Position numbers and translations under genes: made by a program
The notes under the pieces: model-generated
The model's database searches: none
What the model was told of the DNA's origin: nothing
Seen by the model: only the letters and a program-made list of their open reading frames with translations
Source: a virus
Strand: one strand, 5' to 3'
Length of the DNA stretch: 33,297 nt
Virus record (IMG/VR): IMGVR_UViG_3300010399_000067
Location: 1 to 33,297 of that record
Shown: piece after piece, positions 2,373-24,642 of the stretch
Position numbering within the stretch: position 1 is the first letter of the stretch
Layout of the letters: every line of letters begins with the position of its first letter

Positions 2373-2678
2373 TTAGCTTGTTTTCGCCACGACTTTTCCG
2401 TCAATTATTACCGGGCTCCCATCCGGGTTCCGAAGCACGTCATCAGGCGGGTTTTCCACCGTAACAGTGAATATCGGGGCTCCGATTGTCTTGTCTCCGC
2501 ACACCGGCCGCTTGCAGTTGTGGGAGACGATGTGATGCGGATCTCGGACGAGGGGAACACAGTCGCCCCTCGAATCATCGACCGGGACGTGAACTGGCTT
2601 CGCGTTGTTTAAACAGGGAACACACCCGCAGCCACAGCCGCATTCTCCAGTTTTGAAAGAGTCTATGCAATCGTTCAT
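2373..2678 (-). CDS. Small Cys-rich protein
   Basis: 101 residues with a striking N-terminal cluster of alternating Cys and Gly (ECGCGCGCVPC at about residues 12-22) and more cysteines further on (GDCVPLV, HNCKRPVCGDK). The C-terminal half reads like a small beta domain (APIFTVTVENPPDD, GSPVIIDGKVV). The Cys cluster could bind metal or form disulfides; the neighbouring connector-like protein also carries a dense Cys/Gly segment, so the two may share this chemistry. Nine bases separate its start from the upstream stop. Function unknown; coding is supported by operon position and by the natural composition of the frame. Confidence 0.65.
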   Translation of the reverse strand: MNDCIDSFKTGECGCGCGCVPCLNNAKPVHVPVDDSRGDCVPLVRDPHHIVSHNCKRPVCGDKTIGAPIFTVTVENPPDDVLRNPDGSPVIIDGKVVAKTS

Positions 2679-2687
2679 AAAAGGATT

Positions 2688-3350
2688 TCAACCGATTATA
2701 CATCCGAAGCAGTAGCTTTTAGCCGAGACGTTAAAAAGCGGCACATTGAGTTGAAACGGGTCGAACTTCCACGCCGAAGGATCGGTTAAAATCATGTCAT
2801 TGTCAAAGTGCGGAACGCGCATCGAATATGCACCACCACCGGTCTTCTGATGGTGCCCTATATTATTTCCCATTATCGGCCAATGACCGCGCTTTGTGCA
2901 GCGACGGTTGAAACGTTTGGTGATGGCTTCATTGGATTCGATCCACAAACAGGAAAGTGAACTGCTAGAGGTGTCGTTCATCGCTGTAACTACTGCCTCG
3001 TTCGTGGTGTGAGCACTCGGCGAATATCGTCTCGGGAATATGAGGGAAAAGTGGGAGAATTCGGCAATCGCCAAGGCAACCAGAGAGACATAAGTTGCAC
3101 CCCCGTCCTGAGAGTTTCCGTAACTCTGTATAGCCGCCCCTGATCGAGTGTTGACCTTCTCCGGAGTCTTCGGAGTCACATTGACCGTGAAGTTAGTTCC
3201 GTTGTTGACGACGTGTCTTGCGGAGGTCGCAGTTGCTAGTTCACCAAAAAAGCGAGCACTGCCCAACCATCCTGTAGGAGTGTCCGTAGTCGCCCACAGG
3301 AAGTTTTGTGTTCCCCCACTACCAACAAGTGCTAGAGAGTAACTTGGCAT
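2688..3350 (-). CDS. Fibre- or decoration-like virion protein, paralogue of next gene upstream
   Basis: 220 residues from MPSYSLALVGSGG. I chose this ATG, three bases after the upstream stop, rather than the 54-codon longer reading that would run over the upstream gene and has Arg-rich shadow-like sequence. Residues about 63-95 (TPEKVNTRSGAAIQSYG, then SQDGGATYVSLVAL) align with TPEKFNSRSPAAAGTYG and KAQTSALLAGWAL of the protein encoded immediately before it, so the two are homologous. The first half is rich in Gly, Thr and Asn as in beta-structured fibre or capsid decoration proteins. The C-terminus diverges (FNVSAKSYCFGCIIG). Function inferred from position next to fibre genes. Confidence 0.7.
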   Translation of the reverse strand: MPSYSLALVGSGGTQNFLWATTDTPTGWLGSARFFGELATATSARHVVNNGTNFTVNVTPKTPEKVNTRSGAAIQSYGNSQDGGATYVSLVALAIAEFSHFSLIFPRRYSPSAHTTNEAVVTAMNDTSSSSLSCLWIESNEAITKRFNRRCTKRGHWPIMGNNIGHHQKTGGGAYSMRVPHFDNDMILTDPSAWKFDPFQLNVPLFNVSAKSYCFGCIIG

Positions 3351-3352
3351 TT

Positions 3353-3946
3353 TTACAGTTCCTCGAATATCTCCGTGGCGCTGACGACGCTGGTTCCGCT
3401 GAGTGAACGGATGCCAATAACTTCTCCGTTGACGTAATACATTTCTTCTCCGGGCGCGGCAACCCATCGGATGAATCCTCCAAATGCGTTGAAAGCGAGA
3501 ATTAGCGCCCACCCTGCGAGAAGGGCACTGGTTTGGGCTTTTCCGTAGGTGCCCGCAGCGGCGGGCGAGCGTGAGTTGAATTTTTCCGGCGTGATGGCGC
3601 TGTTAGAAACGAGTGTGGCGTTAAGCTGCCCAACACCAATGCGATTCACGGCGGATGAAGTGGCTTCACCTCCTATGATAATTTCGAGGATGCGCCCTTG
3701 GCCGGATGCTGCGGCTTTAACGGTGAGGAGGTCGGCAGTCGTGGACAACGTCGCGCCAGCATTGACGATGGAGTAAACCGGGTCATCGGGGCAAAAGTCG
3801 CGGTTGACTTGTTCGTATTTGGGCCAGAACTTCATTGCTCGTTCGCGTGCCTCTTCGAGACAACGTGATGGCGCACGCATGTCGTGCATCCAATTCTGAC
3901 GGCGCATTAGTGTTTTAACTTCGCATGGGTCGATTAGATTTTTCAT
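3353..3946 (-). CDS. Fibre- or decoration-like virion protein, paralogue of the downstream gene
   Basis: 197 residues. The start codon overlaps the stop of the repeat fibre gene as ATGA. The first 55 residues are helical and charged (EVKTLMRRQNWMHDMR, EEARERAMKFWPKYE), then a beta-type domain begins (VNAGATLSTTADLLTV, GRILEIIIGGE). The segment TPEKFNSRSPAAAGTYG is shared with the following gene's product, which indicates a tandem duplication of the domain, here with an extra N-terminal helical module that could attach it to the virion. No enzyme motif is visible. The assignment to the virion is by context. Confidence 0.72.
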   Translation of the reverse strand: MKNLIDPCEVKTLMRRQNWMHDMRAPSRCLEEARERAMKFWPKYEQVNRDFCPDDPVYSIVNAGATLSTTADLLTVKAAASGQGRILEIIIGGEATSSAVNRIGVGQLNATLVSNSAITPEKFNSRSPAAAGTYGKAQTSALLAGWALILAFNAFGGFIRWVAAPGEEMYYVNGEVIGIRSLSGTSVVSATEIFEEL

Positions 3947-5028
3947 GTGCGTGTTGCTTTCATTGTTATAGTTAGTCGGGTGATGGTAGATACGCTATCG
4001 ATGTTGTAGGAAAGAATATCACCAGCGGCGATTGATGTTGTCCAGCCAGTGAGGGTAGTGTCTTGATACTTCTGTGCGGAGGACAAAGTGGGCTTCGCTG
4101 CGGCTGTAATAGTGTCGGCGACGGTGGGAGGAAAATTGGCGAATGTATCCTTCCAAATGTCAACTACTACAGAACCGGTCTGATCGGCGTAGAGATCGGC
4201 TTGGTTAATAGTGCAAGCGAACGGAATCTTGATGTGCCCTTTCTGTCCGGTGGTGATGGCACTTCCACCACCATCCACGATAAAGCAGATTTCAACGACC
4301 TTGAGCGTGGAAGACAAGAGAGTAGCGTTAGAACCTGCGGAAGCGGTCACGTCACCTGTGAGGGCGGCTCGTTGCAGATTCCCGGCCCCGTCCATTGCCA
4401 GAGTCTCATTGAGCAGGATGGTTTCAGGATCTCCTGTGCCAGCCGTATCTCGACCAATGAGTGAATCGGTCGCGATGTTCTGCATCTTAGCGAAGGTGAC
4501 GGCATCGTTAGCGATAGTCTGTGCCGTTCCTCCTGCTGCTTTGGTAACATCACCCGTGAAAGCACTTGTTTGAATTCCCGGCCCTCCAGTGAACTCGACG
4601 CCTCCACCAACGCTGATTTCTTCCGGATCGCCGCTGCCTGCCGTGTCGCGCCCAAGCAATCGGTCGGTGGCGATGTTCTGCATCTTCGCGAACGTCACCG
4701 TGTCATTGGGAATTGTAGTAGCATTGTTTCCAGCGGCGGCTGTTACGTCGCCAGTCAAAGCAGATCGCTGGATTCCACCCGCCCCCGTAAATTCCACACC
4801 TCCGGAAACGGTCAACTCCTCGGTATCTCCTGCCCCGGCTGTATCTCGTCCAAGCAAGCGGTCGGTCGCCGAGATATTCTGCATCTTAGCGTAAGTAACG
4901 GTGTCGTTAGGGATGGTCGCAACTTGAGAACCACTACCGGGACCGGCAGTCACATCGCCAGTAAGTTCGGTAATACCGGTCGAGGAGGTAGCAACCTTGA
5001 GACGACCTTCGTTATCGTAAACTTTCAT
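3943..5028 (-). CDS. Tail-fibre-like protein with three and a third 66-69-residue repeats
   Basis: 361 residues. After 21 residues, units starting with LTGDVT follow one another: each has LTGDVTAAAG, then IPNDTVTFAKMQNI, then a TDRLLGRDTAGSGDPEE-like stretch and a Gly-rich turn. Three full copies and one partial copy are visible, then a distinct C-terminal domain of about 115 residues (from VVEICFIVDGGGSAITT) that may be the receptor-binding or trimerisation head. Repeats of this LTGDVT...AKMQNI kind are common in phage tail fibres and related adhesin-like proteins, where they form an extended trimeric shaft. Both ends overlap neighbours as ATGA. The fibre assignment rests on the repeat pattern and on position. 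Confidence 0.82.
   Translation of the reverse strand: MKVYDNEGRLKVATSSTGITELTGDVTAGPGSGSQVATIPNDTVTYAKMQNISATDRLLGRDTAGAGDTEELTVSGGVEFTGAGGIQRSALTGDVTAAAGNNATTIPNDTVTFAKMQNIATDRLLGRDTAGSGDPEEISVGGGVEFTGGPGIQTSAFTGDVTKAAGGTAQTIANDAVTFAKMQNIATDSLIGRDTAGTGDPETILLNETLAMDGAGNLQRAALTGDVTASAGSNATLLSSTLKVVEICFIVDGGGSAITTGQKGHIKIPFACTINQADLYADQTGSVVVDIWKDTFANFPPTVADTITAAAKPTLSSAQKYQDTTLTGWTTSIAAGDILSYNIDSVSTITRLTITMKATRT
4303..4965 (-). repeat. In-frame tandem repeat of the fibre shaft
   Basis: Units of about 207, 198 and 198 bases plus a partial unit of about 60 bases lie head to tail inside the fibre gene, each beginning at an LTGDVT codon run (coding positions roughly 4965-4759, 4758-4561, 4560-4363 and 4362-4303). 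The copies differ by substitutions, and the first has a 3-codon longer reading, so the array is not a recent amplification. Such arrays can change copy number by recombination. Confidence 0.85.
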
Positions 5029-5342
5029 GTTTGTTCTACACCGAGAACGGTGTAATCAACGCTCGCTGCATCAGTAGTTTCGCCCTCAATTTCGTCGCCC
5101 GCTTCAAGCGTCTCGATGCCTTCCTCATGGGCAAACTCGCCGGTGTCGATCTTAGCCTGACCGATCTTGCGGCTCGTGCCACCAAATTTCTTGATGTAGA
5201 GCACAACGGTCTGTATACCACTTGCGACATGAGCAAGAGTCACGTTTCGGATGATTGCGCGAGTCGCCGCAGGAACCGTATAAAGCGTGGCTTTGGCGGC
5301 TGGTAATTGACCGTTAGCAAGAATTTTTCCGGTGGTTGCCAT
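5025..5342 (-). CDS. Small beta-rich virion protein
   Basis: 105 residues (MATTGKILANGQLP...). The sequence alternates hydrophobic and polar residues (ATLYTVPAATRAIIRNVTLA, TVVLYIKKFGG) with a clear jelly-roll or fibre-domain flavour: this arrangement, with YTVPA followed by IIRNVTLAH, is frequent in small phage tail or capsid-associated proteins. The C-terminal part is acidic (EEGIETLEAGDEIEGE). Its stop overlaps the start of the repeat fibre protein as ATGA, so the two are probably made in fixed ratio. Likely a minor structural protein; exact role unknown. Confidence 0.75.
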   Translation of the reverse strand: MATTGKILANGQLPAAKATLYTVPAATRAIIRNVTLAHVASGIQTVVLYIKKFGGTSRKIGQAKIDTGEFAHEEGIETLEAGDEIEGETTDAASVDYTVLGVEQT

Positions 5343-5348
5343 GTTATA

Positions 5349-5600
5349 TCAAAGGGTCAACCATATTAAAGTATCGTCCGATGGTCCGGCAGGCCCTTGC
5401 GGTCCCGTCGCTCCTGTTGCTCCCGTAGATCCCGTTGCTCCTGTTTCACCTTTCGGACCCGGGGGTCCATCAGACCCTTTCAAACCTACCGATCCCGGTG
5501 GACCCGGTGGACCCGATGGACCGGGTGGACCCGGGGGGCCGTCAGAACCTCCCGTAGATATTCCAAATCTTCCTCCTGCGGTATATGTTACTCTACCCAT
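5349..5600 (-). CDS. Short collagen-like Gly-X-Y protein
   Basis: 83 residues. From residue 18 to about 72 there are some 18 consecutive Gly-X-Y triplets with many prolines ([16 protein letters not shown], then [17 protein letters not shown]). Flanking segments are short ([13 protein letters not shown] and DDTLIWLTL). Collagen-like triplets form extended trimeric stalks in phage fibres. It follows the larger collagen/beta-helix fibre gene with a single-base spacing (TAATATG) and may be a linker or a small fibre partner of it. Repetitive DNA of this kind is prone to length change. Confidence 0.8.
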
Positions 5601-5601
5601 A

Positions 5602-7455
5602 TTAAGTCAGAAGCCCGTAGTCCCTGAGAGCGTCATTAACCTGTTTGAGTTTTCTCGCAAGCTGATAAATGTCGTTCCGAATAGCCGCTGCATCGACCGA
5701 GTAAGTATTCAGGTCCGTGAAATTCGCAATGGTCCCGTCGGTTCCACCAACCGTCACATTGTTTGTCAGATCCTCTCCGCTGGTCTGTTTCACGACAGGC
5801 GGCACTCCGGGGAAAAACGCCTGAACATCGAATTCGTTGTCGAGGACTGTTCCAGACACAACCGACCACGCTGGATTCGCCCCGCCGCAACCGCGTATCG
5901 ATCCGCTGAGAGTTGTCCCCCAAGCCGCGAATCCATTTTTCGCAAGACAGTTTTCGAAAACTCCGGACAAAATTCCTGTCGTCCCACCGAACATGCCGGA
6001 TGTGCTACCACTCGAAGCGGCATATCGGCAACGAAGGAAAACGCCTGAAAGTGTCGGAACATTCCCTCCTCCGTGACTCCAACCCCCGCCGTCAGCTTCG
6101 CAGTCGATGAAAGTTCCAGTGATCGATGAGTCGGCACTATCCGCGTAACCGAATGAAAGACCTGCGGCTTTGCACCTCAGCCAAAAACCCGCGACTGTGA
6201 CGGCTCCCGCAATCGCAACACCGAATGCGCGGCTGGTGTCCCAAGCACGAACGTCAGTCCAAGTGCCGGAGAAATTCTTGTCCCAAGGGGTAATCCGATT
6301 TCCGCCACCGGTCTTTCGAAGCAATACATTCGTGACCTTGAGTTTTATTCCGAACCCTGTTTGAGTCGTGTTGATCGCGCTTTCGTTACCCGCAGACACC
6401 GATTTGATGCAGAGGTTCGAAATGGAAATATCGTGTGACCCTGAGTCGGCGGCGGAATTGATGTTGATCGGATCGACTGTTGAGACGATAACGGTCTCGC
6501 CCTCGTCCTCGACAACTCCGCTGCGGAAATTCATTTGACCTGAGTTTTGCGACACTCCGGCCAGATCTATGTATAGAGTGTCGAGCGTGAGCGTTCCCGC
6601 TCCGAGATCGTATATGCCCGGGAGCAAGAAAATGGTAAACCGATTAGCGGTTGCGAGCGCGGCTCCGTTCGGAGTGGATGCCTTCGCGAAAACATAAGCG
6701 TCCTGCAACGCGGTGCCGTTCACCAAAGGATCGGCATCACCACCGATGAAAATATATGCGCTTCCGGGATTCGGAAAACCACCTGTGCCGGGAATTCCTT
6801 GCGGTCCCTGCGGTCCTGTGGCTCCGGGTGTTCCGGGCTCTCCCTGCGCTCCTGTCGGTCCCGGTGGGCCTTGAATCGCCGATCCCCCGGGCGGGCCTGT
6901 AGGGATGACGAGTTTACCGGCCGGTATGGTTCCAGAGGCACCGGGAACGGCTTGGACGAGAGTCAAAAAAAGCAATCCGCTCGGATCTGTTGCCGTGACG
7001 AGATACCATCCGGACGTGTCGATGAACACATACGAATTCACCAACATTGCCGGGGTCGGCTCCGTGAGAACGGACATGCTGAGGTTTCCCTCGGTCGGTT
7101 GGGTGAAACTTTGGAGAGTTACAGTGTAGGCATTGAACCCATCCTGACCGGGATCTCCCTCAGGCCCCTGAGGACCGGTAAGTCCTATAATTCCTTCATT
7201 GAACAGCCGAAGAAAATAGCAAGCGAGACCTTCATCGGCTCCTCTCGGATTATTCGGCAGACCAGTATCGAGATCGCATGGAAGAGTCCAGATGACTTCA
7301 CCATTGATCTCAGTCTTGATTACCTCTCCGAAAAACTGCATCGTAAAATTCGAGATCTGCGATGGCAGGGACTCGCACGCAGCCGTATTTTGCTGCGTCA
7401 CCGCGCACGGATTGTTCGAGCATCCGCTCGGGACGTTAAAGGAATTACACGACAT
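5602..7455 (-). CDS. Tail fibre/spike with collagen-like segments and beta-helix
   Basis: 617 residues in modules. Residues 1-90 hold a Cys-containing head and a beta domain; collagen-like triplets occur at about 91-104 ([16 protein letters not shown]) and again at about 185-225 ([16 protein letters not shown]); between them is a beta domain ending in [12 protein letters not shown]. From about 235 onward the pattern is of a right-handed parallel beta-helix of pectate-lyase type ([20 protein letters not shown], then repeated turns such as [12 protein letters not shown] and [12 protein letters not shown]). The last 30 residues are helical ([19 protein letters not shown]), a likely trimerising coiled coil. 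A good ribosome-binding site (GGAAAGG) precedes the start. This suggests a receptor-binding spike; enzymatic activity cannot be judged. Confidence 0.85.
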
Positions 7456-7456
7456 G

Positions 7457-8026
7457 TTATTTGTCCTTTCCGTTTTTAAGAACCTTCAGTTCCGAGTGAA
7501 CTGTGGCATGACGATGAACGAAAAACCAAATTGCGACAACTCCTCCGGCTACTCCCATAATCAGGATTTCGTTTCCGACCACGAGGGACGGGAGAACGAT
7601 CAAAGCGAGTCCAGCCACACAAGCCACCGCGCTAGTGGTAACACTTCCAACAATGGCCTTGAGGGGCGGATAAAAAGCACTGGCTGCGCCGAAGACGAAA
7701 AGCAAAATCCCAACCCAAACAATCGGCCGCATGGCATTTAGTTTCGCTCCGATTTCCCTCGCAGCGTCTTTTTGTGCCGCGCCGATTGTGGTGTCCACCC
7801 TTTCCGTAACCGTAATTTTCGCCGGTTTCGACTGGACCGGTTTATCCTCCGGCAGAGCAAAAACCGTCTCGGTGGTCTTCTCATACTTTTGAGTAGATTC
7901 CGATTTAGGATTCTCCGACTGCTTGAGTAGAGTTTTGTTCGGAGACACGAGGCTGCTTCCCGGCTTGAGAGCCACGAGAGAACATCCGGTCAGACCAGCG
8001 ACTAGGATTAAACTTGCGATTTTCAT
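7457..8026 (-). CDS. Membrane lipoprotein with three predicted transmembrane segments
   Basis: 189 residues. The N-terminus has a lipoprotein signal with lipobox LTGC (Cys15), followed by a polar linker of about 80 residues, then three hydrophobic stretches at about 101-120 (VGILLFVFGAASAFYP), 125-150 and 154-170 (GVAGGVVAIWFFV), and a basic C-terminus. A lipid anchor combined with several membrane spans is unusual. It directly follows the holin-like gene (ATGA overlap) and precedes the spike gene, a place where lysis or host-membrane functions such as spanins are often found, but it does not look like a typical spanin. Role unknown; lysis or superinfection exclusion are possibilities by context only. 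Confidence 0.75.
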   Translation of the reverse strand: MKIASLILVAGLTGCSLVALKPGSSLVSPNKTLLKQSENPKSESTQKYEKTTETVFALPEDKPVQSKPAKITVTERVDTTIGAAQKDAAREIGAKLNAMRPIVWVGILLFVFGAASAFYPPLKAIVGSVTTSAVACVAGLALIVLPSLVVGNEILIMGVAGGVVAIWFFVHRHATVHSELKVLKNGKDK

Positions 8027-8262
8027 TTTACTAAGAACCGTGATACAAACTCGATGACGGCAATTCCGCCGAGAGACACATAAACGAACCTCTCCACATG
8101 CCGCAGACGGTCGTCGAGTCTTCCAGCGATCTGCTTGAGTTCTTCGATCATCACCCGCCGAGTTCTTTTCTCGCTCTCGGCATCGGCAATGAATCTTTCA
8201 AATTGCGCTTCCACTCTGACCAGCCTTTCATGTAGTTCGATTTCCGTGCATTCTGCTGCCAT
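8023..8262 (-). CDS. Holin-like small membrane protein (XhlA-like arrangement)
   Basis: 79 residues: a charged helical region (EIELHERLVRVEAQFERFI to about residue 55) that reads as a coiled coil, then one transmembrane segment near the C-terminus (YVSLGGIAVIEFVSRFL) and a final Lys. This order matches haemolysin XhlA-type holin-associated proteins, which sit with their helical domain in the cytoplasm and help in lysis. A strong ribosome-binding site (AAAGGGG) stands in front of the ATG. The stop overlaps the lipoprotein start. The XhlA comparison is by topology and length, not by a decisive motif. Confidence 0.65.
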   Translation of the reverse strand: MAAECTEIELHERLVRVEAQFERFIADAESEKRTRRVMIEELKQIAGRLDDRLRHVERFVYVSLGGIAVIEFVSRFLVK

Positions 8263-8296
8263 GTTTCCCCTTTAAGACGGTGAGCGTCATTGGTTT

Positions 8297-9145
8297 TTAT
8301 ACCTGTCTCCCTAAAGTTGTTTGGAAAGCCTGCCACGCATTGTAAAGATTCGCTTGTTGAGTAGCGTCGAAATCTGTGGATAGTTGGTATCCCGCGTGCG
8401 CTCGATTGTCGGGAGCTACCCCGCCACCTCCGTTATTATTGTTTACCGTATTAACATAGATTACAATCGCTGAACTTGTAAGACTCCCGGGAGTGACTGT
8501 GGTTGCGAGTTGGGAACCATTCTTATACAATTTCATGCTCGTGGTGCTGAGACGAACCCCTAAATAAAATCCGTTCCCGTTTGAATCGGAAACCGGTCCT
8601 ATTCCCGCCCCATTATCCGTCATGGAATAATAACTATTCCCCAAATTCGCGACAGATAAATAGCTGAAGTTCGTTCCGTCGTATGTTCCCATATTCAAGG
8701 AACTGAAATTTGAAGCTGTCCGAACATACAACCCATACGACATCGCATGATTCGTTGCATCGATGTTGTAAAGATCGGCAAGGGTAGCGCCCGTAGATAT
8801 CCATTTACTCGCTCCGTCCCCAGTGAGCCCGGTCGATTCGGAATAATCTCCCGAAACGAAATTAGCATTCGTCTCGGAAGCAGATCCGATGTCTTTTATC
8901 AACGGGGTGAGACAGGCCGCGAGACCTGTCCCCGCATACAAATTCAATCGGTAAATTTTGCTCCGAATGTTGGCCGCTTTAATCGCCAACATAAAAGTGT
9001 TGGCCGCGTTCTTAGTGCTTGCGGATACACTCCCCCCGTTTGCTTCCACTCGACTCACCCAATCGAGAACTTCTGCGTCATAAACGAATCCCCCGGAAGA
9101 TATCGCTACTCCGGGGGCTCGCCGGTTGATGATCGGATTCGGCAT
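8297..9145 (-). CDS. Phage structural protein with LamG/concanavalin-like domain
   Basis: 282 residues. The first 60 residues contain a helical module (VLDWVSRVEANGGSVS, NAANTFMLAIKAANI) and the rest is a beta sandwich typical of LamG-like carbohydrate-binding domains: YSESTGLTGDGASKWISTG, then AMSYGLYVRT, FYLGVRLST and SMKLYKNGSQLATT, the last being the classic strand-turn-strand for these folds. The C-terminal helix (QQANLYNAWQAFQTTLG) follows. Such proteins are frequent beside tail and capsid genes and may bind host glycans. The start overlaps the upstream stop as TAATG. Fold inferred from pattern only. Confidence 0.72.
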   Translation of the reverse strand: MPNPIINRRAPGVAISSGGFVYDAEVLDWVSRVEANGGSVSASTKNAANTFMLAIKAANIRSKIYRLNLYAGTGLAACLTPLIKDIGSASETNANFVSGDYSESTGLTGDGASKWISTGATLADLYNIDATNHAMSYGLYVRTASNFSSLNMGTYDGTNFSYLSVANLGNSYYSMTDNGAGIGPVSDSNGNGFYLGVRLSTTSMKLYKNGSQLATTVTPGSLTSSAIVIYVNTVNNNNGGGGVAPDNRAHAGYQLSTDFDATQQANLYNAWQAFQTTLGRQV

Positions 9146-9996
9146 TAGTCCTGAAGAATTCCGTAAATGAGTTGCAGATCCGTGGTGGCGACGTAGTCCG
9201 GTGCGCCGGTCGTCACGAGGGCCGCGAACAAACTTGTGTTGCCGTTTGCGCCCTTCAGGGTGATGCCAAGACCCTTGAGTGTAGCCACCGCTTTGCTGTC
9301 GATTGTAATGTAGTCCGTCGCTGCAATCGTGATGTGCGCGAGGACTTTCAAATCGTCGGTGCTGAAAACGAATGCTGAGTTATCGGTGATCGTCGCTGCG
9401 CTCGGGTCGGCATCGAAAATAAAAAGTTCCATCGCCGCCTTCTGATTCGCCCGGTCGAGGATCGTGATCGATTCGAGGATGCCGGAACCGTTCGAAGTGC
9501 GGAGTGCTCCTGTGATAGTCCTTTTGCCTCCCACTGCGTCACCGGCAGTGTAAACGGAAGTGCTGACTGCCGTGGTGTCCTTCAAAGCGACGGAATATCC
9601 GCCGACATTGTTGTTCGTGGTCGTCAATGACAACAGACCTTTGAGAGCTGCGATGACGGAAGCATTCGATGCCGGATTCGTCACGGCTGCGTCTGCCGGG
9701 GCTCCGACACCTGTTACAGTGCTGCCGGTGTTCGTGCCGATAGTAGCGAGGGTCGAAGAGTTGAGACTTTCAAAAGACAAAATGCCTTTCAAAAGCGCAA
9801 TCTGGCTCGCACTCAAAACTGGGTTCGTCACGGCTGCGTCAGCTTTCGCGCCTTCCGCGACATCCGCGCCGTCCGCAATAGCTACGTTGGATGCCGGGCC
9901 TGTGCCGCCTCCGGCATTCAGGAGGGTCATCAAAATTTTTCGAAGCAGATTATTATCTGTGTCTCCGGGTTTGAATGTAGTTTCGTCAGCAGCCAT
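9145..9996 (-). CDS. Probable minor virion protein with internal repeat
   Basis: 283 residues. A disordered Ala/Gly-rich N-terminal third carries a duplicated motif: DAAVTNPVLSASQIALLKGI and, about 50 residues later, DAAVTNPASNASVIAALKGL. The C-terminal 140 residues look like a beta-sandwich domain (GALRTSNGSGILESITILD, AAMELFIFDADPSAAT, THE last part ending LQLIYGILQD), a pattern seen in phage head decoration or tail proteins. An AGAAAG element eight bases before the ATG is the probable ribosome-binding site. It is the first gene after the HNH endonuclease and would be the gene next to the capsid gene if that insertion were absent. Confidence 0.7.
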   Translation of the reverse strand: MAADETTFKPGDTDNNLLRKILMTLLNAGGGTGPASNVAIADGADVAEGAKADAAVTNPVLSASQIALLKGILSFESLNSSTLATIGTNTGSTVTGVGAPADAAVTNPASNASVIAALKGLLSLTTTNNNVGGYSVALKDTTAVSTSVYTAGDAVGGKRTITGALRTSNGSGILESITILDRANQKAAMELFIFDADPSAATITDNSAFVFSTDDLKVLAHITIAATDYITIDSKAVATLKGLGITLKGANGNTSLFAALVTTGAPDYVATTDLQLIYGILQD

Positions 9997-21416: not shown

Positions 21417-23363
21417 TTAAAGTATCGCTTCCTCTGTCGGCCGGTTTCCGTCGTCGAGAAACTGCGTTCTATTAGATTCATCGATCCTCGCGCCTCCGCG
21501 AAGTTGGATCTCGTCGAGCCAGCCGTCGGTATCGTCGCCGCCTCCGGGCATGTCGGAAGTCGCGTCGAGATTCATACTCAGAGTCACACCGGAACCTTTC
21601 CGGGCGGCATGAACGAGGAGTGTCAGACTGTCGGCCTCGTCCGGTGACTCGAACCCGCGAGAGATGTAATCCCGCTTTTGCTCGACTCGGGTTTTTCCCC
21701 CGGTGATCCGAAACTTTCGCTGCGTGAGTTGCTGCGTGAGTTTCGTCATGTCAATTTCCGGGGAGATGAGAAAATATTGAAACTCGCCCCACTTCTTGAG
21801 TGCGAACCAGAGTTCCGTGTTCATCCGTTCGTATTCCTCGAAACATGGCTTGCTGTCTTCGACCATGATTTTGTCCTTGCTGCACGCCTCCGAAAAATTC
21901 ACGTCATGGATGCTCGGGCTCCATTCGTGTTTTATCAAGTCGGCAACTCCCGCGCCCGCGCCCGTTCGATCACAAGCGAAAAATTCCCCGCGAACGCCAG
22001 CTTTGCGGTTCACTTCAACGGTTCGGTCGGTTTGCTGACGGGTGTCTCCCTTTGGGATGGTGAATTGCTGGTCTGCTTGGAGTGCCCATCTGACGATTGA
22101 GTGTCCGTTTCGGTCCTTGAACATGACCTTTCGCCCGGTGGGAAACTCAATAGAAGGAGGAAATTGAATACCAGTTGCTCGTCCCCATTTTCCGAGTGTA
22201 TATATAGCAGCGGCCCCGCCTTCGAGTGCCAGATCCTCAGATCCGATGGGTTTTGGGTCGTCATACCAGATGAATTTTCCCCGCCATTTTGCAAGCATAC
22301 CGGGCGGAATGACTGTTAGTTCGATTCCTTGAGGCGGGTATGCTCCGCGCCCCATTGTGTAATACCCCGCACTGCCTCTGCCTCCGGCGTTCTTTGCGAT
22401 GTTCTCAAGTCCGGATCGAGTTTGCAGGCCGTTGAAAACGATTCGCCCCTCGGTGACGTTCTCCGATCTCTCTCCATCGAGACGCAACACATCCCAGTCG
22501 CGTTTCGATTTCCACTTGTAGTGGTTCTCCACATCGAAACCTTCCCAACCGAACGGTGGCTCAACTCGCTTCGCCAATTCGTCTCCCTGATTCGTCGGAT
22601 TGAACGCGCCGAAAAGTTTGAATCCGCTCGTGTCGCCTTCCTCTTGAATGTTCGAGAGGATGTTATCAATATCTGACCAAAGTCCCCCGGGGACGTTTTC
22701 GATTTCGTCCACGAAAATAAACAGCCGCGACAACGCGCCGAAAATATTGTGCGGGTTCGGTCTCGGCTTCCGCTTCACACCTTGAAGCCGACCGGCTTTT
22801 TTCTTCTGGCCCACAGGGATGATAATCCCTTTGATACTCGAAAGCTGATTGCGCCGGTCGAGCCCGATGAAAAGTTCCCCCACTTCACCGGGCATCGGCA
22901 GACTCGCGGACTTGTGCAGGCCGACAAGATGGGAAAACAAATTCTGTTCGAGGTGATCCTCGCTCGGGCCGAGGACTCGAACCGTCGTCCATTCCGGATC
23001 TCGAATCCATTCGAGAAAAAGCCGCACGCCGACACCGTAGGATTTGCTGCACGACGCCGCGCCCATTATCAGACCGTGACTGGATGTCTCGAAAAGGCTC
23101 CAAAGGTCTCGGGTGAACTTCGGCTCCGGCGTGAACTGGTTTGCGGTCCAGAGAACCTGCGCGGCGGCTTCCGGTGCGTTTGCGTTCAGGAGATAATGAA
23201 CGTAGTGCATCAGCACCGGCAGGTATTTCTTCGGGTCGTCCTCCAGACGCAAGTTCAGCCGCAGATAATCATCAATCGATTTCGCGGCCTCAAATTTCTT
23301 GTCGGAGTGAACAAGCTTCGCGACGTATGCCGCGAGTGCAATTTCGGTCTTATCGGTGAGCAT
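21417..23363 (-). CDS. terL: Terminase large subunit (ATPase and nuclease)
   Basis: 648 residues from MLTDKTEIAL. I prefer this ATG because longer reading runs over the tRNA-like gene just upstream. Walker A-like GAASCSKS is at 101-108, in a non-canonical form lacking the usual G-K-T/S consensus in full but keeping Lys-Ser. Walker B is LFIFVDE at about 214-220, and the coupling-type TNP motif follows in GAFNPTNQ (about 252-259). The nuclease domain shows acidic residues in a RNase H-like order: EDLALEGG (about 376-383), FFACDRTGAG (Asp465) and SPDEADSL (573-580). It docks at the portal and translocates and cuts DNA. No ribosome-binding site precedes the ATG. Confidence 0.95.
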   Translation of the reverse strand: MLTDKTEIALAAYVAKLVHSDKKFEAAKSIDDYLRLNLRLEDDPKKYLPVLMHYVHYLLNANAPEAAAQVLWTANQFTPEPKFTRDLWSLFETSSHGLIMGAASCSKSYGVGVRLFLEWIRDPEWTTVRVLGPSEDHLEQNLFSHLVGLHKSASLPMPGEVGELFIGLDRRNQLSSIKGIIIPVGQKKKAGRLQGVKRKPRPNPHNIFGALSRLFIFVDEIENVPGGLWSDIDNILSNIQEEGDTSGFKLFGAFNPTNQGDELAKRVEPPFGWEGFDVENHYKWKSKRDWDVLRLDGERSENVTEGRIVFNGLQTRSGLENIAKNAGGRGSAGYYTMGRGAYPPQGIELTVIPPGMLAKWRGKFIWYDDPKPIGSEDLALEGGAAAIYTLGKWGRATGIQFPPSIEFPTGRKVMFKDRNGHSIVRWALQADQQFTIPKGDTRQQTDRTVEVNRKAGVRGEFFACDRTGAGAGVADLIKHEWSPSIHDVNFSEACSKDKIMVEDSKPCFEEYERMNTELWFALKKWGEFQYFLISPEIDMTKLTQQLTQRKFRITGGKTRVEQKRDYISRGFESPDEADSLTLLVHAARKGSGVTLSMNLDATSDMPGGGDDTDGWLDEIQLRGGARIDESNRTQFLDDGNRPTEEAIL

Positions 23364-23373
23364 CGATAAAAAG

Positions 23374-23449
23374 TGGTCGGAACGGCAGGACTTGCACCTG
23401 CGGCCTCCCGGTTCCAAGCCGGGCCGTCTGCTACTGACATTACGCTCCG
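23374..23449 (-). tRNA. tRNA-Pro(UGG) with CCA encoded, divergent D and T loops
   Basis: 76 bases fold into a cloverleaf: acceptor CGGAGCG/CGTTCCG (one G-U), anticodon stem CCCGG/CCGGG with loop CTTGGAA (anticodon UGG after U33), T stem GCAGG/CCTGC with loop TGCAAGT, variable loop of 5, A73 and CCA. C1-G72, A73 and the GG of the anticodon are those of proline tRNA. Odd points are A37 instead of G37, a D stem of TGTC/GACG with loop AGTAGCA that lacks the usual GG, and G55 instead of U55 in the T loop. It ends 10 bases before the terminase start. Confidence 0.75.
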
Positions 23450-23457
23450 ATTAAAAA

Positions 23458-23530
23458 TGGCCGGGATGAGAAGGGTTACGAGCCTTTCCTTCCGAGTGAT
23501 CTTCTCGGCGTGCCCAAACACTGCATCCCG
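23458..23530 (-). tRNA. tRNA-like gene of uncertain identity (anticodon region GAU-like)
   Basis: 73 bases with a perfect seven-pair acceptor CGGGATG/CATCCCG, G73 and encoded CCA. A D-arm candidate GTG/CAC and an anticodon stem CCGAG/CTCGG with a seven-base loop AAGATCA are visible, but position 33 is A rather than U, so the anticodon (GAU) is only nominal. The T arm pairs as GGAAAGG/CCCTTCT around CTCGTAA with a mismatch, longer than usual. It is set between two other tRNA-like units with 2- and 8-base gaps, which supports a real array. It may be functional in an unusual form or degenerate. Confidence 0.45.
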
Positions 23531-23532
23531 AT

Positions 23533-23605
23533 TGGTAGCGGGGGTGGGAGTCTCACCCACGGAAGCAGAGCTTATGAAACTCGCTTGAAGATCCTTCTCC
23601 CCGCA
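23533..23605 (-). tRNA. tRNA-Met(CAU)-like gene with short D arm
   Basis: 73 bases. The acceptor GCGGGG/CCCCGC is paired from position 2 with a mismatched 1-72 pair, and A73 plus CCA follow; this 1-72 mismatch is the hallmark of initiator tRNA. The anticodon loop is TTCATAA (CAU), with an anticodon stem that may extend through AAGCGAG/CTCTGCTT with one bulge. The T stem is GTGGG/CCCAC with loop TGAGACT. The D arm is shrunken to a GAAG/CTTC hairpin. Total length and D arm are below standard, so automatic callers may miss it. Confidence 0.55.
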
Positions 23606-23623: not shown

Positions 23624-23672
23624 AAAAAAGAAAATCGGCCACTCTGAGTTGTGCCGAAACAGAGTGGCCGAT
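23624..23672 (-). terminator. Strong rho-independent terminator before the tRNA array
   Basis: Two perfect 13-base arms (ATCGGCCACTCTG and its complement CAGAGTGGCCGAT) enclose a 13-base loop. Read on the minus strand they are followed by TTTTCTTTTTT. It lies directly after the small gene at 23694, ending the recombinase-containing message before the tRNA-like genes and terminase. Confidence 0.92.
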
Positions 23673-23693: not shown

Positions 23694-23864
23694 TTATGCG
23701 CCGGTTTTCTCCCTGTTCTTGGGGTGTCCGTTCTTGTAGTCGGGGTGGGAATTGTTGGCTATTCTGGCGATACGCAGTATCGCGTCTTCCTTGAATTTGC
23801 GAGCTAGACTCTGAACCACACAGGTTCGGTCTCCTGACTTGAATGCTTTAAACTGTCCGTCCAT
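23694..23864 (-). CDS. Small basic protein of unknown function
   Basis: 56 residues (MDGQFKAFKSGDRTCVVQSL...). A strong ribosome-binding site, GAAAGGAG, lies eight bases before the ATG and decides this start over a longer reading upstream inside the recombinase gene. It overlaps the recombinase end by 17 bases. The sequence is Lys/Arg-rich (ARKFKEDAILRIARIA) with a helix in the middle and could be a small DNA-binding or accessory factor; no family recognised. A terminator follows about 20 bases after its stop. Confidence 0.65.
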   Translation of the reverse strand: MDGQFKAFKSGDRTCVVQSLARKFKEDAILRIARIANNSHPDYKNGHPKNREKTGA

Positions 23865-24642
23865 TTTGTTGCTCCTTTCGTTGTTGGTTGATGCGAAAAA
23901 TATTCTCCGCATGGTGATCTTTCGGTTTGCGCGTCCAAACTCCTGCAACGCGCATAATTTGAAGAGTGTTTTTCTTGTTCCACTTGTTCCCGCGACGGGT
24001 AAGAAAACCCTCCGCGTTCAGAAAATCCGCAACCGAGTCGATGGTCATCGTCGGATTAACATAGATTTTCAAGGTTTGGAGTATCGCCCGCTCTTGCGGT
24101 GTCTTGCCGTAGGGCACACCGCCCTCGCAACGGCCGGTCTTGCGCTTCACTGCGAGCCGTGCTTTCCGCAGCTTCAGGACCGTTTGCGCCTTCTCCCACT
24201 GCGCGAGTGCGCCCATGACCTGACGAATAAGTGTCCGAGTCGGATCTCCGTCATCGGAGGCGAGATCGATTAGTTCCCCCCGGTCGGCCGCATAAACTTT
24301 GATTGATCTCTCTCGGCACTGTTTCAGCAAAACTTCCTGAACCATGAGGTCACGCGCAAGCCGGTCCATTCGCTCGACCACGATGCCAGCGACATCCTCG
24401 CCGTTTTTCCGCCTGCATTCGATGGCTTCAACCATTTCGCTGAACTTCGGCCGGTCCATGCCTTCAACGGTTCCGCTGACGCCCTCCTCGAAAAATTCTC
24501 CCCCGTAAACGAGGCGACTGCCGCAGAATTCGCGGATGGTCTCCCTCTGACGATCCGGGCCTTCACCGGAGATCTGGCCCCGGCCGCTGACGCGAATGTA
24601 GCCGTAAACTATCGGCAACTCAATGATTTCGTCTTCGTTCAT
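23848..24642 (-). CDS. Serine recombinase (resolvase/invertase family)
   Basis: 264 residues. The catalytic domain has YGYIRVSGRGQ with the nucleophilic Ser19, the second segment EGVSGTVEGMDRPKFSEMVE, and VVERMDRLARD with the conserved arginines. A recombinase domain follows (RCEGGVPYGKTPQERAILQTL and a helix-turn-helix-like ADFLNAEGFLTRRGNKW). It is mid-sized: longer than simple resolvases and shorter than large serine integrases, and lacks the long coiled coil and zinc ribbon. It makes a double-strand cut at a crossover site with a 5' phosphoserine link. It could be an integrase, an invertase for a tail-fibre switch, or a mobile resolvase. Start overlaps the previous stop as ATGA. Confidence 0.9.
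   Translation of the reverse strand: MNEDEIIELPIVYGYIRVSGRGQISGEGPDRQRETIREFCGSRLVYGGEFFEEGVSGTVEGMDRPKFSEMVEAIECRRKNGEDVAGIVVERMDRLARDLMVQEVLLKQCRERSIKVYAADRGELIDLASDDGDPTRTLIRQVMGALAQWEKAQTVLKLRKARLAVKRKTGRCEGGVPYGKTPQERAILQTLKIYVNPTMTIDSVADFLNAEGFLTRRGNKWNKKNTLQIMRVAGVWTRKPKDHHAENIFRINQQRKEQQNGRTV

Follow-up and report, generated by a model that had tools for sequence, protein, structure and literature searches.

The window, by which we mean the whole 33,297 bp stretch of DNA analyzed here, is a linear IMG/VR virus record with recombinase, ATPase and structural-type genes on the minus strand. Three CCA-encoding tRNA-like units of 76, 73 and 73 nt, separated by 8 and 2 nt, fill positions 23374-23605 exactly, as the first-pass annotation had stated. 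Read 5′ to 3′ on the minus strand, these are a tRNA-Met(CAU)-type unit with a short D arm (23605-23533), a middle unit with GAU at the anticodon position (23530-23458) and a tRNA-Pro(UGG) (23449-23374), followed by the ATG (23363) of a terminase-like large ATPase gene (21417..23363, minus strand, 648 aa) that begins 10 nt downstream of the array. The 8 nt that separate the Pro unit from the CCA of the middle unit (23450..23457, minus strand) form an A/U-rich spacer, and A/U-rich trailers come after most units in relatives as well.

A serine recombinase gene (23848..24642, minus strand; Pfam Resolvase, E 5e-23; PHROGs integrase/invertase) lies upstream of the array. The idea that the tRNAs serve as a recombinase attachment site was set aside: relatives have different units at the same place. 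tRNA genes are not the usual attachment sites of resolvase-type enzymes. Just upstream of the array, direct reading revealed a hairpin (CGGCCACTCTG...CAGAGTGGCCG, 23624..23670, minus strand, 13-nt loop) followed by a U-rich run, which is likely a terminator; a terminator scan did not return it, as its loop exceeds the limits of that tool. Matches to Twister-sister, archaeal RNase P and CRISPR repeats near the array in a permissive Rfam scan scored far under threshold and were rejected.

The name “terminase-like” is based on Walker-like motifs and gene position, and searches of PHROGs, Pfam and PDB with this protein matched nothing. The portal-like and capsid-like proteins likewise had no match in PHROGs or Pfam. 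Among named phages, blastn of the region and tblastn of the terminase each gave zero matches, and searching GTDB genomes via the terminase found no prophage relatives. The segment 10625-23363, which encodes these terminase-, portal- and capsid-like proteins, thus appears to represent an undescribed phage lineage. In IMG/VR, terminase-based scans identified well over 100 related loci, some on contigs of 70-75 kb. Array content varies among close relatives: the window and L003, whose terminases are 96% identical, have only the Met unit in common, and the hairpin also occurs in L003.

Structure and detection of the three units

The Pro unit (23374..23449, minus strand) comprises, in order, CGGAGCG TAATGTC AGTAGCA GACGG CCCGG CTTGGAA CCGGG AGGCC GCAGG TGCAAGT CCTGC CGTTCCG ACCA. 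The Met unit (23533..23605, minus strand) comprises TGCGGGG A GAAG GAT CTTC AAG CGAGT TTCATAA GCTCT GCTTCC GTGGG TGAGACT CCCAC CCCCGCT ACCA, and the middle unit (23458..23530, minus strand) comprises CGGGATG CA GTG TTTGGG CAC G CCGAG AAGATCA CTCGG AAGGA AAGG CTCGTAAC CCTT CT CATCCCG GCCA. Several features of the first-pass annotation were recovered in this reading. The acceptors are paired (7/7 in Pro, one being G-U; 7/7 Watson-Crick in the middle unit; 6/7 in Met, which has the reported 1-72 mismatch, U1.U72), the minus-strand anticodons of Pro and Met are UGG and CAU, position 55 is G in the T loop of Pro (TGCAAGT) and in that of Met (TGAGACT), and the unit said to lack U33 is the middle one, with A33 in the loop AAGATCA.

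Covariance models, proposed there as a check, scored two of the three units. Pro matches Rfam RF00005 at 42.4 bits (E 6e-6), and Met scored 32.0 bits (E about 2e-5) against R1, a model that we built on 23 phage tRNAs with the Met unit left out; no model scored the middle unit. In the first R1 search, all 57 matches ran in the same direction as the terminase gene. Standard ARAGORN found none of the three units in the window. The suggestion that an organellar mode would detect them was borne out for Pro and Met by ARAGORN's metazoan-mitochondrial mode, which did not return the middle unit and made one extra call on the other strand. Folding energies relative to shuffles were z = -2.43 for Met, -1.07 for the middle unit and -0.61 for Pro.

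In the window, a strict cloverleaf descriptor had a single match, 23458-23530, and 60 shuffles gave none. As it was designed with the middle unit in view, this match supports that unit without proving it. For descriptor searches, scores of 11-12 were background, and we used only scores well above these, or covariance-model matches. The middle unit, which has neither orthologs for comparison nor a match in Rfam, R1 or either ARAGORN mode, probably belongs to the array as a tRNA gene that has diverged further. Its D arm, GTG-TTTGGG-CAC, carries GGG in its loop, so the claim that none of the units has a D loop with GG was incorrect, and its 8-nt T loop (CTCGTAAC) keeps UC.

The Met acceptor (TGCGGGG/CCCCGCU with U1.U72) is of the initiator type and fits the unpaired 1-72 of bacterial initiators (NGCGGGG/CCCCGCN). 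The three G-C pairs that initiators carry by the anticodon loop are absent, the stem being CGAGU/GCUCU, and long-form Met relatives likewise lack GGG/CCC beside this loop. Thus, the window Met is not a standard initiator, and its acceptor and U1.U72 suggest initiator ancestry. Its layout resembles that of tRNA-Pyl, in which the linker is one base long, the D loop is small, and both G18 G19 and T-psi-C are missing (PMC7609411). This likeness is one of layout only: a tiny D loop without GG, the one-base linker and the lack of TTC are common to both, whereas the window Met has a longer variable loop, a CAU anticodon and another acceptor, and nothing points to pyrrolysine. The compact tRNA-Met of the crAss-like cr85_1 and of Bacillus phage Goe3 resembles the window Met in its CAU anticodon, its acceptor and the very short loop on its D stem (GAAT/ATTC), but its D loop TGGT and T loop TTC make the standard contact. 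In three relatives (L045 6349-6427, L046 6386-6463 and L048 854-932), Met-CAU-like units have an extended anticodon stem with an apparent bulge, conserved in all three.

Joint change of the D and T loops in phage tRNAs

In the standard tRNA elbow, base 18 is sandwiched by 57 and 58 and contacts 55, and the 19-56 pair exposes a flat face that the ribosome, RNase P and processing enzymes read (PMC4810234). U55 (pseudouridine) and its contact with G18 are described as universally conserved hallmarks of tRNA (PMC4810234, PMC7912444). Neither Pro nor Met has the canonical G18 G19 with U55 C56. In Pro, the D loop AGTAGCA and T loop TGCAAGT give A18 G19 with G55 C56; in Met, the D arm GAAG-GAT-CTTC (3-nt loop) and T loop TGAGACT give A18 U19 with G55 A56. 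The claim that both sides of the elbow contact are changed therefore stands for Met at 18/55 and 19/56, and for Pro at 18/55 only, G19-C56 being intact. It does not apply to the middle unit, which fits neither a swapped-elbow nor a contact-lost class.

Orthologs of the Pro unit reveal the direction of the exchange. We discarded the many protein-coding stretches that also matched the search pattern TAATGTCAGNNNNAGACGGC. Four canonical phage tRNA-Pro genes (L121, L138, L140 and L142) share with the window Pro the D-arm backbone TAATGTCAG....AGACGG, the anticodon arm and the encoded CCA, but have G18 G19 and TTC (D loop AGCGGTA, T loop TTCGATC) where the window has A18 G19 and TGC. The ortholog in L046, from the same phage group as the window, is AGCGGAA/TTCGAAT, and those in L045, L047 and L025 combine AGTAGCA with TGCAACT. 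Comparison of the canonical and swapped loops indicates that G18 to A18 and U55 to G55 changed jointly while G19, C56, U54 and A58 were kept. Acceptor pairs 5 and 6 and one T-stem pair differ between the window and L045 with pairing preserved, and compensatory changes in these stems also set the window apart from L047 and L025. The nearest named matches to the window Pro, tRNA-Pro genes of Caulobacter phages, carry G18 G19 and TTC.

For Met, a pattern search of IMG/VR gave, after four matches without tRNA structure were dropped, 17 short-D-arm sequences. They come from several phages that are not related to one another, with contigs of 345, 203 and 136 kb among them. Their D and T loops were GGG with TTCGACT in eight cases, GAG with TGCGACT or CGCGACT in seven and GAT with TGAGACT in two (the window and L003), and none of the 17 was mixed. 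In an alignment of the 16 distinct sequences (A7), 18-55 is A.G in nine and G.U in seven, and 19-56 is G-C in 14 and U-A in two; with 19-56 treated as a pair, 93.8% of the cells of the structure are paired. The covariation score was 0.495. Shuffles scored 0.164 +/- 0.019, with 0 of 500 reaching the observed value, and slid versions did not exceed 0.105. When the Met states were mapped onto a terminase tree of 48 phages, D and T each underwent six changes. All four independent pairs on well-supported branches agree (sign test p 0.125), too few to reach significance by themselves; counting every branch of the best tree gives six pairs.

The pattern extends to other phage tRNAs. ARAGORN gave 262 distinct phage-side tRNAs, 261 with a 7-nt T loop, among which 220 had GG with TTC, 37 had both loops changed and four had one changed (1 + 3). 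The corresponding Fisher p of 3e-40 ignores relatedness and overstates the independence of these related sequences; a separate parse of covariance-model matches gave p 2e-9 for the joint change. The exceptions are L083 237-312, L015 1826-1899, L082 4340-4415 and L101 1292-1368. Other matched states also occur, including G18 U19 with U55 A56 in a Gln of L102 (hand alignment), G18 A19 with U55 U56 in a Met of L083 (included in the terminase-tree count), and A18 G19 with G55 C56 in a Glu of L155, where the rest of the array is standard. The proportion changed reached five of six tRNAs in L215 and 14 of the 15 ARAGORN tRNAs at 2516-9162 of a 203-kb contig (L233, IMGVR_UViG_3300050821_001527), which span many isotypes and are mostly AG/TGC. 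Several T loops in L233 read AGCGTTA, as if the 54-58 pair had been exchanged too.

The proposal that the D- and T-loop sides were altered together is thus strongly supported by relatives. The accompanying view, that the units lack normal contacts like some mitochondrial tRNAs, is not supported: the changes are paired replacements (G.U to A.G at 18/55, G-C to U-A at 19-56). Because they are paired, with U54-A58 and all stems preserved, they point to an elbow that was kept and rewired. On the loop comparisons, the 18/55 contact in the array appears to be exchanged for another matching pair, not lost.

A recurrent CCA-ended, tRNA-Glu-like element was also noted in relatives (L051 6215-6290, L061 2865-2944, L064 112-188, L070 1678-1753, and in L146, L148, L149, L150, L151, L152, L155 and L156). 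Its D arm, TCGTCYAAAAYCYAGGAC, has no GG, its T loop has 8 nt (for instance GGTGAAGT or GAAGAAGT), and the length and sequence of its anticodon loop differ between copies; it is probably unable to decode. The L155 copy had no Rfam match.

The same elbow in bacterial chromosomes

A pattern designed to find AG/TGC tRNAs was searched against GTDB contigs, and the matches listed include many Patescibacteria as well as Endomicrobium, SAR11 and others. Given that design, covariation was counted only in cellular tRNAs that do not match the pattern; among these, 18-55 is G.U in 156, A.G in 32 and other in nine, with the proviso that automatic assignment of 18/19 misreads some long D loops, for example in GT/TC rows where the true reading is GG and then T. 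Taken over both phage and cellular tRNAs, covariation indicates that the 18-55 and 19-56 contact is maintained in some form.

HIMB114 (L267/L398) has one tRNA-His(GUG) among the 30 of 32 Rfam tRNA matches that were read, and its loops (AGTTAGTTA/TGCAACT) give A18 G19 with G55 C56; the two unread matches are 82 and 89 nt long and so not His-like in size. In BroJett034 (Patescibacteria, L417), the one tRNA-Cys(GCA) among the 35 tRNAs read (of 44 Rfam matches) has A18 G19 with G55 C56, and one tRNA-Arg(CCU) has A18 with G55; a second tRNA-Cys may exist among the remaining matches of that genome. These tRNAs, together with an Endomicrobium tRNA-Ile and a Patescibacteria tRNA-Met, have the AG D loop and TGC T loop seen in the window. 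They differ in being chromosomal, with full-length D arms and no U19-A56 seen, whereas the window Met has a short D arm and U19-A56. A bacterium whose sole tRNA-His is of the A18/G55 type must translate with it, and this is the best evidence that the swap is compatible with function. Judging from these genomes, the A18/G55 elbow very probably works in translation.

Elbow function and alternative explanations

We consider it likely that the units of the array are phage tRNA genes lying on the late-gene strand, with Pro and Met having undergone a covarying elbow exchange that keeps the L shape. In both, A18 opposite G55 would replace G18 opposite U55, and in Met U19-A56 would also replace G19-C56. 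The purine at 18 would still fill the slot between 57 and 58, a Watson-Crick 19-56 pair would still present a flat face, and the L shape would be retained although U55, the pseudouridine site, is gone. From the sequences we infer the geometry of the A18.G55 contact, as well as transcription, processing, charging and decoding of the window tRNAs; Pro and Met most likely serve in translation during infection. The simplest cause of the swap would be neutral compensatory change via a tolerated intermediate, and escape from elbow-reading enzymes or defence nucleases is a possible one.

Chance cloverleaf-like folds in an intergenic stretch are an extremely improbable source of the units: Pro and the middle unit do show unexceptional folding energies relative to shuffles, but the covariance-model scores, the covariation and the orthologs that relatives carry at this position argue against it, and for Pro and Met the orthologs and covariation already refute it. 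Decay of tRNA genes under relaxed selection, with loops drifting and stems persisting by chance, would account for A33 and the 8-nt T loop of the middle unit, for the unlike array content of the window and L003 and for the failure of standard ARAGORN. Drift predicts many single changes, yet we observed four single and 37 double ones, and the stems change with compensation while 18/55 and 19/56 change jointly, so that we regard decay as improbable. We also considered resemblance to metazoan mitochondrial type II tRNAs, which have non-canonical D and T loops as in the window (where ARAGORN's mitochondrial mode finds Pro and Met) and whose D/T-loop interaction is described as lost (PMC7609411). 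The loops of the window type covary instead, which rules this assignment out.

A quite improbable alternative is that the units are non-decoding tRNA mimics, such as decoys for host enzymes that cut or modify tRNA, in which the swap avoids or traps an elbow-reading factor. Relatives do have tRNA-like elements with persisting stems and anticodon loops of differing length, the L233 phage changed almost its entire tRNA set, and phage tRNAs are reported to evade tRNA-targeting defences (PMC10264068, PMC11555353). The anticodon arms of the window Pro and Met are intact, though, with U33 and matching anticodons, and the swap also occurs in cellular tRNAs that are apparently single-copy, so no special anti-defence role is needed. 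A broader reading, which we hold to be unlikely though conceivable, is that some phages moved nearly their whole tRNA repertoire to A18.G55 (14 of 15 in L233, some with AGCGTTA), creating a separate structural class that resists TrmH and TruB, host enzymes dependent on G18 and psi55, or elbow-reading defence nucleases, with the window array as a partial case. If true, such a switch would keep phage tRNAs in use while host tRNAs are attacked.

Returning to the reading of the array as functional phage tRNA genes with an exchanged elbow, the natural matched exchanges suggest what the elbow really needs: position 18 would have to be a purine that matches base 55, and 19-56 would have to form a Watson-Crick pair of some kind. 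Matched 18/55 and 19/56 exchanges are seen within individual tRNA families and across nearly the entire tRNA set of a phage, and the swapped tRNAs are ready substrates for separating enzymes that read bases from those that read shape. The Steinberg laboratory reportedly made suppressor-tRNA selections with altered D/T contacts, a likely precedent. In the open-access literature searched, we found no description of A18.G55 in phage or bacterial tRNAs, although one may exist elsewhere. As default ARAGORN misses all three window genes, tRNA counts for phages are probably too low.

Other RNAs were found near the tRNA arrays of relatives. A tmRNA (Rfam 78.7 bits) or a tmRNA-like 3′ end is present in L015 (1038-1423), L016 (681-1066) and L023 (2653-3038), and also in L078 (1584-1661) and L083 (1143-1219). 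Just before the terminase, L002 (5715-5833) and L046 (6712-6826) share a conserved CCA-ended RNA of about 115-120 nt, a length unlike that of a normal tRNA, whose acceptor-like stem differs between the two yet pairs in both (GCGGAGTG/CACTTCGC and GCAGAGTG/CACTCTGC).
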